A stretch of 64,000 nt of DNA from Opitutia bacterium (GTDB lineage: Bacteria; Verrucomicrobiota; Verrucomicrobiia; Opitutales; Seribacteraceae): NCBI GenBank assembly GCA_002716045.1, contig PAZC01000040.1, positions 1 through 64,000 on the forward strand, written 5' to 3'. The position numbers were made by a program, and so were the translations under genes. Shown piece by piece: positions 1,837 to 45,692 of this stretch. Every line of letters starts with the position of its first letter. Within the stretch, counting starts at the first letter, position 1. Under the pieces are notes generated by a model. The model saw only the letters and a list, made by a program, of their open reading frames with translations. It ran no database searches and was not told the origin of the DNA.

Positions 1837-3123
1837 TCAGCCAACCAGTTCGGAAAGAGGTCCGTGGCCATTTTCCACCAAATACTGCGGGCGACCGGAA
1901 AGGTCTTTCAATTGAGTCTTCGTAACGTCAATGCCCACGTTGTGGTAAAGCGTGGCGAATACTTCGCCCAAATAGACGGGACGATCGGCGGGCTCTCCGC
2001 CTTTGGGATCGGTGGTGCCTATGACTTGTCCATTCTTCATGCCTCCACCGGCAAGAAGCACCGACATGACGCGACTCCAGTGGTCGCGACCGGCGTTGCC
2101 ATTTATCTTGGGCGTGCGGCCGAACTCACCCCAAACAATAACTGTGACGTCATCCAACATGGAGCGATCTCGCAAGTCTTGGATTAGATTGGATACGCCC
2201 TTGTCCAAATTGGGGAGTCGAGAGTTGCGAAGATTAATGAAGTTCTTGCTATGCGTATCCCATCCTCCCGTGGTCAATGTTACGAAACGGGCTCCAGCTT
2301 CCACTACGCGGCGGGCCAAGAGGAAATTTTTGCAGTCATTGCCATACCGCTTGACTGTCTTGGCATCCTCGTTCTTCAGGTCCAGGGCCTTGGCCAGACG
2401 TTCCGAGGTAATGATGTCAAAAGCCTGACGATTGAATACGTCGAATCCGTTCATCATGCCACTGGCATCACAATCGCGGCGAAATTGGTCGAACCCCTTG
2501 AGCAAACCCATGCGGGAAGCGTAGCGATTCTCCTTCATGCCCGACTGGCGGGCCATGTCGTAACGGCCCTTGCCGCCACTGCTGAAGCCCGCATAGGCGG
2601 AACCCAAGAACCCGCCACCTTTGAGACCGCCTCCCATGTTGACGTAGCCGGGCGTGCCCAAGTGATCCCCTTGGACCTTGGAAACGATGGAACCGATGGA
2701 AGGCCAGCCACCGACAGGTTGCGGACCATTCTTCGGGCGACCCGTCATGCAATGGTAGGAACTATGGTTGTTCACCGTGTCGGCAATCGAACGAATGATA
2801 GAGCATTGATCCATTTGAGCGGCGATGCCCGGCAGGTGTTCGCAAATACGTATGCCAGGGACCTTGGTCGGAATAGAAGCGAACTCCCCGCGAAATTCGG
2901 AAGGGGCATCCTCCTTGAGGTCGAAAGTGTCCATATGAGAAGGACCTCCGGCGAGAAAAACCATGATGACGGCTTTCTGCGAGCCCTTCCCTTGCGCCTT
3001 CTCCGCTTGGAGCAAACCCGGCAAACTCAAGCCTCCCATGCCCAATGCGCCGATCTTCAAAAAATCGCGTCTGGCGACTCCGTCACAAAATCCCCGTTGC
3101 TTGCCTCCGTTAACGTTCAACAT
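1837..3123 (-). CDS. DUF1501 family protein, Tat-exported
   Basis: A 428-residue DUF1501 protein, a family related to the alkaline phosphatase/sulfatase fold but without an assigned reaction. The N-terminus carries a twin-arginine signal, ARRDFLKIGALGMGGLSLPGL, with the Arg pair at residues 18-19, so folded export is likely. Family landmarks include FLAGGPSHMDTFD near residue 55, GGWDTHSKNF in the middle and WGEFGRTPKINGNAGRDHW near residue 335. GGGAGG-like sequence (GGGAGGG) sits about 8 bases before the ATG, one of the few clear ribosome sites here. It lies between another DUF1501 gene and the DUF1549 gene on the same strand. The first 20 residues closely match those of the upstream paralogue, which suggests duplication. 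Confidence 0.93.
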   Translation of the reverse strand: MLNVNGGKQRGFCDGVARRDFLKIGALGMGGLSLPGLLQAEKAQGKGSQKAVIMVFLAGGPSHMDTFDLKEDAPSEFRGEFASIPTKVPGIRICEHLPGIAAQMDQCSIIRSIADTVNNHSSYHCMTGRPKNGPQPVGGWPSIGSIVSKVQGDHLGTPGYVNMGGGLKGGGFLGSAYAGFSSGGKGRYDMARQSGMKENRYASRMGLLKGFDQFRRDCDASGMMNGFDVFNRQAFDIITSERLAKALDLKNEDAKTVKRYGNDCKNFLLARRVVEAGARFVTLTTGGWDTHSKNFINLRNSRLPNLDKGVSNLIQDLRDRSMLDDVTVIVWGEFGRTPKINGNAGRDHWSRVMSVLLAGGGMKNGQVIGTTDPKGGEPADRPVYLGEVFATLYHNVGIDVTKTQLKDLSGRPQYLVENGHGPLSELVG

Positions 3124-3274
3124 GTCAAATACCCTCCCATGTCATTACTGTAACTTTGCGAATTATTGCATGCACAAATACAATAGAACATAACTATTAG
3201 TTTAAGACAATAACTTCTCGCCCGCACGAGGAGGCATGAAAATGGGCGAAGCGCCAAAACACGGCGCAGACATT

Positions 3275-4639
3275 CTAGCCCACTAATTCGGGCAGGGGTT
3301 TCCAGTCGTCGACCAAGTAATGAGGCCGCCCGGAAAGATCTTTCACGGTCGTGGCATGGGGATTTATGCCCAAGTGCTGATAAAGAGTGGCATGTACTTC
3401 GCCGAAATGAACCGGTCTTTCAGTCGGCTCGGCCGCCTTGGCATCGGTGGCGCCGATCATTTGGCCATGGTTCATGCCGCCTCCCGCGAAAAAGGCACAT
3501 CCGACCTGCGGCCAATGGTCCCGACCGCCGTCCTTGTTGATCACGGGGGTACGGCCAAATTCGCCCCAAGCAACCACCGCAACGTCATCCGCCATGCCTC
3601 GTTGGTGAAGATCCTCGATGAGGGCACTAAGGCCTTGATCGAAGATGGGAGCATGACCTTTAACGCCACCGGTGTTGTTGCTGTGAAAATCCCAACGCCC
3701 GAAATTCAGCGTGACGACACGAGCCCCGGCCTCGACCAATCGTCGAGCCAAGAGGAAATGTTCGTTGTTGCGAGGCGCTCCGTCACCTACGTTTTTCGGG
3801 TCGCCTTTGCCGTAGCGTTCCCGAACCTTCGGATCCTCATTGTCGAGATCGAGGGCTTCACCCAAAAGGGAGGAGGAGAGCACACCGAAGGCCTGTTGGG
3901 TGAAGGCGTCCATGGTTTCCAATTCATTACCTTGGTCCAACTTTCGCCGAAAGGCATCGAAGCCTGAAAGCAAGGACTGCCTTCTGTCCAGACGCGCAGA
4001 ACCGACGGGTTTGGGATCCATGTCCGTCCGGGCTGGGCCCGATGGACGAAACGGTCCATGCGAGGCACCCAAAAAGCCAGCCTCGCCCGGTGACCCATAA
4101 GGAGGATGGCCCGCCATGGGAGCCAATCCCACGAAGGGCGGCATCCCGGGAAACCTTGCGCCTGCAAGCTTGGAAACCGTGGAGCCAATGCTCGGCCAAT
4201 TGCCGGGAGGTTTCGGGTAAGGACGATCGAAAAAAGCGGAACCGGGACGTCCGGTATAACACATGAAGGAGTCGTGACTTCCGCTCGGAGCGCCCACGAG
4301 GGAGCGAATTCCGGTCCACTTGTCCATCACTTTGGCCATCATGGGGAGCGATTCGTTGATATGTATGCCCTTCACCTTCGTGGCAATCGGGCCAAATACA
4401 CTTCGCACCTCTTTGGGCGCGTCCGGTTTCGGGTCGATCAAGTCTTGGTGCGGAGGGGCCCCTGCCATGTAGATCATAATGACAGACTTGTTGGAATGCC
4501 CCAACCCAGCAGCCTTTTCGGCCTGAAGCAATTGAGAGAGATTAAGCCCACCCATGCCCAAGGCGCCGACGGTCAAGAAATCCCGTCGGCTCAAGCCGTC
4601 GCAAAAACGTCCTGCTCCTTTACCCTCGACGTTCAACAT
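3275..4639 (-). CDS. DUF1501 family protein, Tat-exported (second copy)
   Basis: A 454-residue DUF1501 paralogue. I chose the ATG at 4639 because it gives MLNVEGKGAGRFCDGLSRRDFL, which aligns with the downstream paralogue and places the Tat arginines at residues 18-19. A further in-frame start at 4741 would add 34 residues before the Tat signal and is unlikely. It shares the motifs YMAGAPPHQD, FGRWDFHSN and WGEFGRTPVINKDGGRDHW with the other copy and with the family. The gene is 152 bp upstream of the other DUF1501 gene. The gap contains a short GCGCC/GGCGC hairpin just after this stop, without a U-tract. Function is unknown. Confidence 0.93.
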   Translation of the reverse strand: MLNVEGKGAGRFCDGLSRRDFLTVGALGMGGLNLSQLLQAEKAAGLGHSNKSVIMIYMAGAPPHQDLIDPKPDAPKEVRSVFGPIATKVKGIHINESLPMMAKVMDKWTGIRSLVGAPSGSHDSFMCYTGRPGSAFFDRPYPKPPGNWPSIGSTVSKLAGARFPGMPPFVGLAPMAGHPPYGSPGEAGFLGASHGPFRPSGPARTDMDPKPVGSARLDRRQSLLSGFDAFRRKLDQGNELETMDAFTQQAFGVLSSSLLGEALDLDNEDPKVRERYGKGDPKNVGDGAPRNNEHFLLARRLVEAGARVVTLNFGRWDFHSNNTGGVKGHAPIFDQGLSALIEDLHQRGMADDVAVVAWGEFGRTPVINKDGGRDHWPQVGCAFFAGGGMNHGQMIGATDAKAAEPTERPVHFGEVHATLYQHLGINPHATTVKDLSGRPHYLVDDWKPLPELVG

Positions 4640-4765
4640 GAGATTGATCTTGAGAGATTCATTGATTGCACGCAATGCAAACCAACCATTCAAAGCATAA
4701 CCAAAAACCTGCGAAGCGCCACCGAACAATCCGAAAATCAAGTTTCAGGTGGCCCGTTACTCAAC

Positions 4766-5755
4766 TCAATCGGGAGCCAGAGCCATCACGGCCCAGCAGG
4801 TCGCAGCAATTGATATGAACTGGTCCTTGCCGTGAGGAAATTCACTGTCGAGTGGTTTCTGGATCGGCTTGCTGCGTGTCTTGACCAACCAGGAACCGTC
4901 CTTCAGTTGGTTGTCCAGCAGCCACTTCTCACCCAAGGAAATGGCCTTGGGCACGGGTTGCGGCACACCGCTTTCCTTCAAGGCAAAGAGTGCAAGCGAA
5001 GTAGCGTAAGCATCGCTCGCCATGTCAGGCAGCTGACCCCAGCCATTATCCTCGCGTTGCAGGGCGAGCAAAGCCCGAGACGCTTCGCCTGCCTGCCCTG
5101 CCTTCGGGACGCCGCCCCAGTGAAGTCCAAGCAGCTTGAAGGCATGATCCTCTGTTGAACTGGGCGGGAACTCCTTCATCCATTGGAGTGCCTTTGCCAT
5201 CGCGCCTTGCCGTTCATCGGTCCCGCCATAGGCTTGCAGTCCCCTGTAGGACAGAGCGGTGGCGGCGAAATGGCTGTCCTCGATCGGCGGTCGATGATTG
5301 ATGATCTTCCACGACCCGTCCTTCTTTTGGGACTTGAGCAGGTAACGAACCAAAGACTGGGTCACTTCATCGGCAGGCTCCCCCGCCGCGGACAAGCTGG
5401 TGAGGGCATAACCTGCATTATAGGGTCCGCCCGGCACACCCTTCCCTTGAAGCAAAAGTTTGCTTCGTCCACCAAAGTAATCGAGGGAGAACTTGACCTG
5501 CGTCGCGATAGAATCCTGAGCCACCTTGAGGCCGAAGTCCCGTGATCTTCCCAACGCCATCATCGCCAGGGCTTGATGGTGACAAGAGAAGCAATCACGC
5601 TTCTCCACGTAGGCGAGGACGCTCTTCTCGATCAAGGGAATGGCCCGAGAAACCGCCTCGCCTGCGGGCGAACTCGTTTCCTTGGCCGACAATGCTCCCC
5701 AACCCGACGAAAAGGTTGCCAGTACGAGCAAAAAACGAAAGGGGAAGATTCTCAT
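4766..5755 (-). CDS. Terpene-cyclase/prenyltransferase-fold repeat protein with CxxCH motif
   Basis: A protein of about 329 residues with an N-terminal signal peptide (MRIFPFRFLLVLATFSSG...ALSA). A CFSCHH motif at residues 55-60 resembles a c-type haem site. The rest is a series of alpha-helical repeats of the squalene-hopene cyclase/prenyltransferase beta type, with QKDGSWKI, QREDNGWGQL and LKDGSWLV marking successive repeats. The DXDD motif of true hopene cyclases is not seen, so a catalytic cyclase is unlikely. Such CxxCH plus cyclase-repeat proteins occur beside DUF1501/DUF1549 genes in PVC bacteria. ATG 5755 was preferred over GTG 5761 (2 residues longer). It is the first gene of the apparent left-end cluster, read toward position 1. 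Confidence 0.8.
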   Translation of the reverse strand: MRIFPFRFLLVLATFSSGWGALSAKETSSPAGEAVSRAIPLIEKSVLAYVEKRDCFSCHHQALAMMALGRSRDFGLKVAQDSIATQVKFSLDYFGGRSKLLLQGKGVPGGPYNAGYALTSLSAAGEPADEVTQSLVRYLLKSQKKDGSWKIINHRPPIEDSHFAATALSYRGLQAYGGTDERQGAMAKALQWMKEFPPSSTEDHAFKLLGLHWGGVPKAGQAGEASRALLALQREDNGWGQLPDMASDAYATSLALFALKESGVPQPVPKAISLGEKWLLDNQLKDGSWLVKTRSKPIQKPLDSEFPHGKDQFISIAATCWAVMALAPD

Positions 5756-5838
5756 CTTCACTCAAGCCTTGCAGGAACCCGTCACAATTCCAAGGAATAG
5801 ATTGTTTCAAACAAAGGGTCGCGAAGAGCAAGCATAGC

Positions 5839-7920
5839 TTAATCGCGGACCGGTTTCCTAACGGAATAAGCCTTGCTGCCCAAACCCAGTGCCTCGACCG
5901 CTTTAGCGGGGAAAGGGTCGTACTTCCCCTCGGGTTGGTAGAGGACGACGCGGCAACGCTCGGCGGCAAGAGCAACCGCTTGGGGAAGATTGAGGTGTCG
6001 CAACACATGGAGATAGGCGGGGCCTTCCATATGGCTGGCGGAGAGGTCGTGGAGATCAAGACGAGTGACTTTGGGAGTGAAGAGCGATGCGTACAGAAGA
6101 TTGGCCGCCATGTGACCGTGGGCCTGCATCCAAAGAGGCGTTTTGGCGAAGCCGTCCACCTTTCTGAGCGCCTCTGCGGAACGGATAACGTCGAGGACGC
6201 GCATGCCGTCGAGGGTTTGGCCGAGCAGGTAAAAGCGGCGGCGAATATGGTTCTGTTTGCGGGCGTCTCCCGACCAAGCGGTGAGTCCTATGCCACGTGG
6301 GGCGACGTATGCCATGGCCCATTCCTGATTCTTGAACATGCGTTTTTCAGAGGCGAAGGCATCGGCATCGTGGGCGGGAAGTTCGTCCAGCTCGCCCAAG
6401 ACCTTGGAGAAGGGTTTGCCATATGTAGCGGCGAACTCGCCCCACCCTTTTTCGTCGAGGACGTTGAGGACGACGAGGTCGAGATCCTTGCGAGGGAGTC
6501 CCTTGCGGTGGACTACGAAAAGGCGGAGGTTCCACGGTTCCTGCGAAACAAAGTCATAAGCGGAGAAGGCAACGTCGTCCGACTGCATCCCGATCACCTT
6601 CCGAACAGTTACGGGATGAGGTTTGTCAGGCCATGCCAGAAAAACGTTTTTCTTGAGACCGCTTATGGTGTTTTCGCGAAAAGTGGCCCAGACCTTCTTG
6701 TTCTCTGGAATAGCAGGTGGAGCGATCGGCGGCACGAAGGTTTCATGTATCGTGCTGGTGATTTGATTCTCGGGAAGTTTGTCGAAGACTTTCAATTCCT
6801 CGGGCTCGAAATACTTCACGGCGGGCTTGTCAATGAGTGGTCGCTCATTCTTGAGGAAGCGGTTGAACCATGAAAAGGCATGCACCCGAAGGTCCTGCGT
6901 GTCCTTGTGCGGGCCTTCTGCAATCTGGAGGCCGAGCTTGCTGGAGGCGCCGAGCATATCATAGACCCGCTTCGTCTTGCGGTGCACCTCGACAACACCA
7001 TCGAGGGGAAAAATACGGTCCTTGTCGGTGTTCGAAATGAGCAGGGCCCGCGGGGCCACGAGCGAGGATATCAAGGCGAAGTCCCAACCTTGGGAATTCA
7101 CCTGGTACATGCAGTCGCAATGGCCCTCGACGCATCCGTCGACGACGTGGTTGCGCATACTGGTGATGCCCGCCACGGGGACGGCGGCCTTGACCCGCTC
7201 GTCTAGGGCGGCCACCCACCAACTGTAGGCGCCCCCACCCGACCGGCCGGTCACGCCAATGCGTTCACCGTCCACTTCGGAACGGGACTGCAGGTAATCT
7301 ATGCCTCGAATGCCATTCCAAGCCTCCACACCAGCAGGTGTGTATCCACGAGACGCCCACCACCACATGTTCTTGGAATAGATGCCGTGGTGAAGTCCCT
7401 CGATCTCGCCCAGTTGAATGGTATCTATGGTGAGGCAAACGTAGCCATGCCTTGCGAACCATGATCCGTGGTGATGGTAGTGCACCTTGTTGCCGTAGCT
7501 GATGCCGTCCTTCTTCACCCGGCCATGCCCACAGACATAGAGTATGGCGGGAAATTTCTGGTTAGGTTTGCGATCGGCGGGAAGATAAAGGTTGCCCGTT
7601 ACGTATAAGCCGGGACTCGATTGGTAGTGCAATTTCTCGACCATAAAGCCCTCCTCTTCCACTTTGCCGGTGATGGTCGCCTTCAGATCTGTTCGGGGTC
7701 GATTGGGATCGAGACCCAACATATGGAAGAGCTGCTTTCGATAGATGTCCTTCTTAGCCGACCAGTCCGCCGCGTTCTTCACCTCGGCGAGAAAACCCGC
7801 TTCGATCTTGGTCGTCTCGAGCTCGAAATATTCCTTGAGAGCGTCGTCGCCGGGATTGGCGAAAACTCCAGAAGCAAAAGAAGCAAGGGGGAGGAGCAAG
7901 CAAGGGGCATACGGTTTCAT
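5839..7920 (-). CDS. Exported alpha/beta hydrolase, acetylxylan-esterase-like
   Basis: A 693-residue exported hydrolase. The ATG at 7920 gives a good signal peptide (MKPYAPCLLLPLASFASGVFA); an ATG 20 residues upstream would bury it. The first half is an alpha/beta-hydrolase of the AXE1/dienelactone type: YVCGHG, then the nucleophile elbow GRSGGGAY with Ser227. The second half (about residues 430-690) contains a second, weaker hydrolase-like segment with AHGHMAANLL but no clear GxSxG. Two-part proteins of this kind are common in marine Verrucomicrobiota and Planctomycetes and are usually linked to acetylated or sulfated polysaccharide use. The substrate here is not readable from sequence. It is divergent from the SGNH hydrolase at 8048. 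Confidence 0.82.
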   Translation of the reverse strand: MKPYAPCLLLPLASFASGVFANPGDDALKEYFELETTKIEAGFLAEVKNAADWSAKKDIYRKQLFHMLGLDPNRPRTDLKATITGKVEEEGFMVEKLHYQSSPGLYVTGNLYLPADRKPNQKFPAILYVCGHGRVKKDGISYGNKVHYHHHGSWFARHGYVCLTIDTIQLGEIEGLHHGIYSKNMWWWASRGYTPAGVEAWNGIRGIDYLQSRSEVDGERIGVTGRSGGGAYSWWVAALDERVKAAVPVAGITSMRNHVVDGCVEGHCDCMYQVNSQGWDFALISSLVAPRALLISNTDKDRIFPLDGVVEVHRKTKRVYDMLGASSKLGLQIAEGPHKDTQDLRVHAFSWFNRFLKNERPLIDKPAVKYFEPEELKVFDKLPENQITSTIHETFVPPIAPPAIPENKKVWATFRENTISGLKKNVFLAWPDKPHPVTVRKVIGMQSDDVAFSAYDFVSQEPWNLRLFVVHRKGLPRKDLDLVVLNVLDEKGWGEFAATYGKPFSKVLGELDELPAHDADAFASEKRMFKNQEWAMAYVAPRGIGLTAWSGDARKQNHIRRRFYLLGQTLDGMRVLDVIRSAEALRKVDGFAKTPLWMQAHGHMAANLLYASLFTPKVTRLDLHDLSASHMEGPAYLHVLRHLNLPQAVALAAERCRVVLYQPEGKYDPFPAKAVEALGLGSKAYSVRKPVRD

Positions 7921-8047
7921 GGCATGAGTTTCGGGAAGAGAGCGAGAACGGTCAAACTCGAAGGAGCGCGAACAAGTCAATTGGGGAAATCAGGACAAAG
8001 GGGAATACGCGCTTGCCCGCAACTGCCTTTCTACCAACCTTATCACC

Positions 8048-44318: not shown

Positions 44319-44843
44319 ATGCATCACAACTACCAAGATACACTGGTTCGGATTTGGAACGATGCCGTGGAGCGTTACAAACAAGGACACACGAAGACCG
44401 AGGGCTTCCTTGATGAGGAAGAACTGGGATTTATCGAATCCATTGGCATGAACCTAATGGATGTCTTTGATTTCGCGGAGGACTGGGTTTGCGAAGGATC
44501 GCCCGACTTGGCAACCTTCTTGCTGATTCATGACGCCCGGCGAGATTACTTCCTCAGAGAACAAGACAGTCAACGCTCTGAAAACCAACTTGACTCCTCC
44601 ACCCTGCCGGCCAAGACGGATGAGGTTCAAGGCATCCGTTGGTTGCCACGCATCATACCAAAGGCAAGAGCCAAGCTACGAGGCGAACTACCACCTGATA
44701 CGATGTTTTGTTGTGGAGGGGATCGTAATTTTTTCCAAATCAACAATGTCCATCCCAGTGAATTTCTCCGGGTGGTTCGAGAAGCCGGGGAAAATGATTC
44801 CATCATCATAGACTGGGTGGTGGAACGAAGTTCGAAAACCTGA
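44319..44843 (+). CDS. DUF5069-domain protein
   Basis: A 174-residue protein of unknown function. The C-terminal half, IRWLPRIIPKARAKLRGELP followed by a small beta segment and NVHPSEFLRVV, matches the DUF5069 pattern as I recall it. The acidic N-terminal half (FLDEEELGFIESIGMNLMDV) is helical. It is soluble, with no signal peptide, and lies between rnr and the dapF-like gene, 10 bp from the latter. Confidence 0.75.
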   Translation: MHHNYQDTLVRIWNDAVERYKQGHTKTEGFLDEEELGFIESIGMNLMDVFDFAEDWVCEGSPDLATFLLIHDARRDYFLREQDSQRSENQLDSSTLPAKTDEVQGIRWLPRIIPKARAKLRGELPPDTMFCCGGDRNFFQINNVHPSEFLRVVREAGENDSIIIDWVVERSSKT

Positions 44844-44852
44844 AGAGTCGCA

Positions 44853-45692
44853 ATGAATTTTGAGAAATATCACGCCCTCGGAAACGACTACCTGGTCCTC
44901 GATCCAAAAGATGGATCAGAGTTTCCCTCGGAGAAAGAAATCATTCGCATATGCCACCGAAACTTCGGGTTAGGTTCCGACGGCATCCTGTGGGGCCCAT
45001 TCCCTTGCGACGAGGCGAACTTCGGCCTGCGCATACTGAATCCCGACGGAAGTGAAGCCGAGAAGAGCGGCAACGGTCTGCGAATCTTCGCACGCTACCT
45101 GCGAGACCAAGGCAAAGTGGGGACTGAACCATTCAGCGTTCACACATTGGGAGGCATAGTGACTTGCGATGTCTCGGAAGACGCATCCTCGATCTCCGTT
45201 GAAATGGGGCAAGTCAGTTTTCGAAGCGACGTAATACCCGTCAATCTGGAAGGAGAAGCCCGCGAAGTACTTGACGAAGCAATCGAAGTAGCCGGTCACT
45301 CTCTCCAATATTATGCGGCCACCATCGGGAATCCCCATTGTGTAATCCCAATGGAGGAAGTGAGCGAATCTTTTGTTCGCGAGATCGGCAACGATCTCGA
45401 AAACCACCCGATATTTCCCAATAGAACGAACTTGCAACTCCTTCAGGTATTGGATCGGAACAATATCAGGATCGAGATTTGGGAACGAGGAGCCGGCTAT
45501 ACCTTGGCCTCGGGCAGCAGCAGCTCCGCAGCTGGCGCGGTGGCTCGCAAAATAGGCGCTTGTGATAATGAAATCACTGTCCACATGCCGGGCGGACAAA
45601 TAGAATTACGAATAGACGACGATTTCAACGTCACCATGAAAGGGCCGGCTACCCGGGTGGGAGCAATGGCCCTTGACCAAGAGTGCCTTTGA
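44853..45692 (+). CDS. DapF-family protein lacking both catalytic cysteines
   Basis: A 279-residue protein with the double-fold of diaminopimelate epimerase. Substrate-binding segments are kept: YHALGNDYLVLD near the start, GNPHCV near 159 and ERGAGYTLASG near 211. In true DapF the two catalytic cysteines lie in CGNG and ACGTG. Here they are Ser72 (EKSGNGLRI) and Ser220 (LASGSSSS), read from AGC and TCG codons. Canonical two-base racemisation by thiols is therefore unlikely. It may be a variant epimerase, a DapF relative on another substrate, or a genuine DapF using serines. I leave the symbol out for this reason. Confidence 0.82.
   Translation: MNFEKYHALGNDYLVLDPKDGSEFPSEKEIIRICHRNFGLGSDGILWGPFPCDEANFGLRILNPDGSEAEKSGNGLRIFARYLRDQGKVGTEPFSVHTLGGIVTCDVSEDASSISVEMGQVSFRSDVIPVNLEGEAREVLDEAIEVAGHSLQYYAATIGNPHCVIPMEEVSESFVREIGNDLENHPIFPNRTNLQLLQVLDRNNIRIEIWERGAGYTLASGSSSSAAGAVARKIGACDNEITVHMPGGQIELRIDDDFNVTMKGPATRVGAMALDQECL

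Follow-up and report, generated by a model that had tools for sequence, protein, structure and literature searches.

A DapF homologue with serine in place of both catalytic cysteines is a likely diaminopimelate epimerase of the DapL route

The dapF locus of an Opitutia bacterium

When analyzing a 64,000-nucleotide stretch of contig PAZC01000040.1 from Opitutia bacterium (here called the window), we examined a gene encoding a full-length homologue of the diaminopimelate (DAP) epimerase DapF. The positions of the gene, its upstream neighbor, and the residues discussed below are listed in Table 1. Pfam assigns the protein to PF01678 alone, with a score of 181.5 bits, and against the NCBIfam DapF model TIGR00652 it scores 233.4 bits, compared with a curated equivalog cutoff of 114.65. 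The solved structures nearest to it in sequence are DAP epimerases, led by those from Anabaena (9MRO) and Arabidopsis (3EJX). In the window and in close relatives, dapF is preceded by an RNase R gene and then by a short gene that weakly matches DUF5069 and adjoins dapF, and no other DAP gene was found nearby.

Table 1. Features of the dapF locus, numbered along the window
Feature	Position	Strand	Remarks
Upstream gene	44319..44843	+	Ends 9 bases upstream of dapF; DUF5069 match weak (35 bits)
Ser/Ser dapF	44853..45692	+	279 amino acids; ATG start; only PF01678 protein found in the genome
Asn11	44883..44885	+	Contact to substrate alpha-amine; Asn13 of Anabaena DapF
Asn63	45039..45041	+	Contact to distal amine and carboxylate of DAP; Asn66 of Anabaena DapF
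Lys71	45063..45065	+	Adjoins Ser72; Lys in 135/136 Ser forms, mostly Met in Cys forms
Ser72	45066..45068	+	Replaces first catalytic Cys; codon AGC; Cys75 of Anabaena DapF, Cys73 of E. coli DapF
Asn160-Pro161-His162	45330..45338	+	Asn160 is the distal-carboxylate Asn164 of Anabaena DapF; His162 conserved
Asn193	45429..45431	+	Contact to distal carboxylate; Asn197 of Anabaena DapF
Glu211-Arg212	45483..45488	+	Contacts to distal amine and carboxylate of DAP; Glu215 and Arg216 of Anabaena DapF
Tyr216	45498..45500	+	Tyr in 135/136 Ser forms; Glu, Ile, Val, or Pro (mostly Glu) in Cys forms
Ser220	45510..45512	+	Replaces second catalytic Cys; codon TCG; Cys224 of Anabaena DapF, Cys217 of E. coli DapF
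Ser223	45519..45521	+	+3 from Ser220; Ser in 135/136 Ser forms, Gly in 67/67 Cys forms; Gly227 of Anabaena DapF

Two serines beside conserved DAP contacts

The original prediction placed serine at both catalytic positions, Ser72 in SGNG and Ser220 in ASGSS, and held that the remaining binding segments were intact. The sequence and an alignment to Anabaena DapF (9MRO) bear out both statements. The serines lie in the wider contexts EKSGNG and ASGSSSS, and the protein therefore lacks the two catalytic cysteines, in CGNG and ACGTG, that mark DapF. The residues reported to bind DAP in Anabaena DapF are Asn13, Asn66, Asn164, Asn197, Glu215, and Arg216 (PMC12039745). Their equivalents N11, N63, N160, N193, E211, and R212 are kept in all 136 related sequences with serine at both positions (Ser forms), one of which is a row without the N-terminal part.

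An AlphaFold model of the protein (pLDDT 95.5) has inhibitor-bound DapF 9MRO as its best PDB match, with a TM score of 0.93 and an rmsd of 2.0, and hydroxyproline epimerases are weaker structural matches, with TM scores of about 0.7. Helices in the model begin at residues 73 and 221, directly after Ser72 and Ser220.

The 203 distinct sequences that we compared comprise 136 Ser/Ser and 67 Cys/Cys proteins, without any mixed form; the set was collected around the window protein, and rare mixed forms may exist elsewhere. Both catalytic positions are thus serine in 136/136 Ser forms and cysteine in 67/67 others. The serines are accompanied by other fixed residues, namely Lys71, Tyr216, and Ser223 (Table 1), Gln195, and Ile78, the last of which is cysteine in 65 of the 67 Cys forms. 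Ser223 stands where Anabaena DapF has Gly227, whose backbone NH is within hydrogen-bonding distance of the catalytic sulfur (PMC12039745). Tyr6 was also considered as a residue specific to the Ser clade and was discarded, as Anabaena DapF has Tyr6 as well.

Among the Cys/Cys proteins, 20 of 67 have valine at the position of the distal-carboxylate residue Asn160, similar to the change at V145 that has been reported for the Chlamydia enzyme. These 20 proteins may be identical with a long-branch clade of Cys forms in Verrucomicrobiota, also of 20 rows, that includes L187, L188, and L189.

Distribution and phylogeny of the Ser/Ser form

A scan of GTDB genomes returned 80 relatives with 48 to 80% identity to the window protein, and all 80 have serine at both sites. 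Their labels include Verrucomicrobiota, Desulfobacterales, Planctomycetota, Chloroflexi, Desulfosporosinus, Marinomonas, Cellvibrio, and others; many of the genomes were assembled from metagenomes, and a few may be mislabeled. Of 289 genomes surveyed in the phylum, 57 had a match of at least 50% identity. Within the order, 39 of the 41 genomes having any match reach this level, and all of those sampled by sequence were Ser/Ser. No close relative of the Ser form was found in plasmid records, where the best match had 37% identity.

In each of two phylogenetic trees, one branch separates all Ser/Ser forms from the Cys/Cys forms. In the more careful tree (115 rows, including the Anabaena and Arabidopsis proteins), this branch has a support of 100/100, and each of the 200 bootstrap trees needs one change only. 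The trees are unrooted, and we infer that the direction of change was from Cys to Ser. Median identity in the 203-sequence set is 55.3% among Ser forms and 32.5% between Ser and Cys forms. The pair is therefore fixed over a deep clade along with other active-site changes, which agrees with the earlier view that paired loss of the cysteines was not random decay. A local mutation or sequencing error is ruled out by the presence of serine at both sites in 136/136 distinct clade members, and decay of the window gene is ruled out by its open frame and conserved active site.

One Ser/Ser DapF is encoded on a viral contig (IMGVR_UViG_3300035326_000440, our L274, positions 2923 to 3768), which also carries an apparent serine-recombinase gene. 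This protein nests within the Ser clade, beside a Clostridiales sequence, and has Gln in place of Lys71, Gly in place of Ser223, and Asn in place of His162.

The only DapF homologue in a complete DapL pathway

No second, canonical dapF was found in the window's genome (93.9% complete, 60 contigs) using PF01678 and protein-query six-frame searches, and the Ser/Ser gene is the only DapF homologue there. The Ser form is likewise the sole PF01678 protein in eight genomes of the order that consist of one contig each (G051, G121, G124, G132, G155, G173, G305, and G308), and also in G161, G206, and G116.

These bacteria also encode pathway partners of DapF in the aminotransferase (DapL) route. DapL of the TIGR03542 type was found in the window's genome and the eight one-contig genomes with scores of 552 to 580 bits (cutoff of 365), while G161, G206, G116, and G018 have the other DapL type, NF004937 (636 to 682 bits). 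MurE is above its cutoff in the window's genome and the eight one-contig genomes and is present in G161, G206, and G116; the DNPR motif, which marks DAP-adding MurE, could be read in each of these genomes except G173, where the pattern was unmatched. LysA is above its cutoff in seven of the eight one-contig genomes and narrowly below in G124, and a LysA or LysA-like protein is also found in G161, G206, and G116. The LysA-like protein of the window's genome scores 245 bits, comparable to the 249 bits of a LysA encoded beside a Ser-form dapF elsewhere (L020). The two copies of the lysA-like region in the window's genome (L208 and L209, on contigs C39 and C6) have flanks that are almost the same, and they look like a redundancy of the assembly or a mixture of strains. 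Among these genomes, DAP dehydrogenase was found only in G051 and G132, and a bypass through this enzyme is ruled out in the window's genome, where the best match scores 19.7 bits.

In G257, which belongs to the same order, the only DapF is a Cys/Cys form, and DapL and a DNPR MurE are present. The Ser/Ser and Cys/Cys forms therefore appear to fill the same slot. Three further genomes of the order (G182, G209, and G316; 97 to 98% complete) yielded no match to DapF when searched with the protein. DAP has been measured in Opitutaceae such as Lacunisphaera, for whose strain IG16b a pathway through DapL and DapF has been listed (PMC5303756); the measurement was reported without a stereoisomer breakdown, DL-DAP was not seen by TLC, and strain IG16b was not matched to any genome of our set.

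Gene clusters and genomes with two forms

At several loci elsewhere, the gene is found in DAP and lysine gene clusters. L020 has the cluster dapA, dapB, Ser-form dapF, dapL, and lysA; L081 has lysA, Ser-form dapF, and dapL in this order; and in L042 Ser-form dapF directly follows dapL. In L029 and L282, respectively, dapB and dapA lie near it.

Several Ser-form genomes, from Marinomonas, Cellvibrio, Thalassomonas, Propionispora, and Desulfosporosinus, encode an additional Cys/Cys DapF that is 32 to 40% identical to the window protein. In the class of Desulfosporosinus, a DapF match was present in 62/62 genomes, and the Ser form occurs sporadically as an additional copy, with some of these copies decaying in Desulfosporosinus relatives (truncated in G336 and degraded in G340). 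Because a Cys/Cys DapF is present as well in that class and in the examined Gammaproteobacteria, the Ser form is not needed there as the only epimerase, and this additional copy is the strongest point still in favor of another role there. In Cellvibrio sp. 79 (L070, positions 5001 to 5831), the Ser-form gene lies between leuD-like and leuB-like genes and the Cys/Cys dapF adjoins lysA.

DapF domains also occur in larger proteins. In L278 (positions 3971 to 8038, minus strand), a complete DapF domain is fused to the C terminus of a carbamoyl-phosphate synthase large subunit (254 and 1,512 bits, respectively). In the class of Desulfosporosinus, open reading frames of 1,320 to 1,392 amino acids with a DapF match, seen as long open frames only, were noticed in G356, G338, G357, G358, G361, G366, and G368.

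A probable epimerase with different chemistry

The window protein, a member of a deep branch of Ser/Ser forms within the DapF family, is probably a working LL-DAP epimerase of the DapL route, an activity to which genome context and conserved residues point. It resembles the DapF proteins of TIGR00652 and PF01678, such as those of Anabaena, Haemophilus influenzae, and E. coli, in predicted fold, length, DAP contacts, the placement of the catalytic pair at helix N termini, and pathway context. It differs from them in having serine for both catalytic cysteines and in the residues Lys71, Tyr216, and Ser223 fixed in its clade. We describe it as a member of the Ser/Ser branch and not as canonical DapF, since the cysteine pair is one defining feature of the latter, though the protein is DapF-like by every test available. 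Since many DAP-producing bacteria have no other DapF, it probably catalyzes the same reaction by different chemistry.

LL-DAP supplied by DapL would bind in the usual DapF groove, where one serine would remove the alpha-proton and the other would give one back on the opposite face, and the product meso-DAP would pass to MurE and LysA. Ser72 and Ser220 lie where the cysteines of other DapF proteins lie, at the N termini of helices 2 and 4, and would owe part of their reactivity to these helix ends, as has been proposed for the cysteines. Lys71, Ser223, and Tyr216 are the residues that we infer to make the two serines reactive. We are inclined, with some reserve, to see here a large natural branch of cofactor-independent epimerases in which a Ser-Ser pair tuned by Lys71, Tyr216, and Ser223 transfers the alpha-proton and which provides the only meso-DAP supply of many bacteria, so that a thiol-thiolate pair would not be essential to DAP epimerase chemistry.

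A natural serine pair is chemically unexpected, because engineered Cys-to-Ser mutants are nearly inactive. Such mutants of PddB, a racemase with the DapF fold, keep <0.1% activity (PMC8225329), the same paper cites <0.1% for Mt-DapF as well, and in HisR the mutations C67S and C209S greatly reduced activity (PMC11602996). The engineered proteins, including those of the DapF structures 2Q9H (C73S) and 2Q9J (C217S), have serine at the same positions as the window protein and are nearly inactive where activity was reported. They are, however, single changes in a Cys/Cys background, whereas the natural clade has other fixed changes around its serines, and the two observations can thus be reconciled.

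The wider fold offers a precedent for catalytic serine in the natural Ser-Cys 4-hydroxyproline epimerase (PMC4113996). The proline racemase superfamily, which also includes a Ser-Thr hydroxyproline dehydratase, shares this fold class and the natural catalytic serine with the window protein, but it is a different family with other substrates, and the window protein does not belong to it by sequence. A Ser-type enzyme of that superfamily has asparagine at +3, which positions the catalytic serine (PMC4113996), where the window protein has a fixed serine at +3 of Ser220. The pair types listed for the superfamily are Cys-Cys, Cys-Thr, Ser-Cys, and Ser-Thr; Ser-Ser is not among them (PMC4364671).

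Alternative explanations

Four other readings were weighed against a serine-based DAP epimerase. In the first, LL-DAP is epimerized with Lys71, and perhaps Tyr216, as the acid/base, while the serines only bind or orient the substrate, so that the reaction is unchanged and the mechanism is another. Lysine and tyrosine act as racemase bases in PLP enzymes (PMC8142540), and the two residues, nearly invariant in Ser forms, are absent from those listed at their sites in Cys forms. We nevertheless consider this reading unlikely: Ser72 and Ser220 coincide exactly with the catalytic positions at the helix N termini, the side chain of Lys71 need not point to the substrate, and the viral protein of L274 has kept both serines despite having lost Lys71.

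A double role as DAP epimerase and glutamate racemase is rather improbable. It would follow Chlamydia DapF, a homologous enzyme which performs both reactions and whose authors extend the idea to MurI-less PVC bacteria (PMC5885031), and it would give a source of D-Glu to genomes without MurI, namely the window's genome, G051, G124, G155, G305, G308, and G161. However, Ser-form genomes G121, G132, G173, and G206 do have MurI. The Chlamydia enzyme keeps both cysteines and has a changed DAP pocket, whereas the window protein has changed cysteines and an intact pocket, including Asn160, which is apparently valine in the Cys forms of a Verrucomicrobiota clade. By score it also falls outside the bifunctional model NF038284 (51.6 bits, with a cutoff of 350), in contrast to the 233 bits that it reaches as ordinary DapF. 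Moreover, the MurI-less genomes have D-amino-acid-aminotransferase-like genes (194 to 234 bits, below the cutoff) that could make D-Glu.

The original prediction had read the paired replacement as a changed reaction. The protein would then act on another amino acid or catalyze an elimination, and another enzyme would epimerize DAP. Both acid/base residues do differ, Cys-to-Ser mutants are nearly dead, the Ser form stands beside a Cys/Cys DapF in several lineages, and the Ser-Thr pair of a related proline racemase enzyme belongs to a dehydratase (PMC4113996). Our results do not support this reading, and we regard it as very unlikely. The Ser form is the sole DapF homologue, with a complete DapL pathway, in its own genome and in closed relatives having DapL, MurE, and LysA or a LysA-like protein. 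In addition, its gene clusters with dapA, dapB, dapL, or lysA elsewhere, its DAP-binding residues are conserved, and a Cys/Cys form stands in its place in G257.

Least probable of all, indeed hardly credible, is a noncatalytic DAP-binding protein, for example a regulator like E. coli DapF in its second role as partner of RppH (PMC4227774), given an active site that is near-invariant over many phyla, including Ser72, Ser220, His162, and Glu211, and the absence of other DapF homologues from the closed genomes.

Implications

In searches of the open-access literature, we found neither a description of a Ser/Ser DapF nor an assayed member. The use of a weak thiolate base (pKa of about 8.5) against a proton with a pKa of about 29 in enzymes with the DapF fold has been described as an unusual mechanism (PMC12039745). 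If the serine pair works as proposed, a thiol-free natural clade would represent an independent solution to the same proton-removal problem and would allow a direct comparison with the Cys forms. Cysteine-directed DapF inhibitors, such as aziridino-DAP and thiol reagents, should then not act covalently at Ser72 or Ser220, and the redox switch of the catalytic cysteines reported for Corynebacterium glutamicum DapF (PMC5296763) could not operate in the Ser/Ser form. Motif rules requiring CGNG would likewise miss real DAP epimerases.
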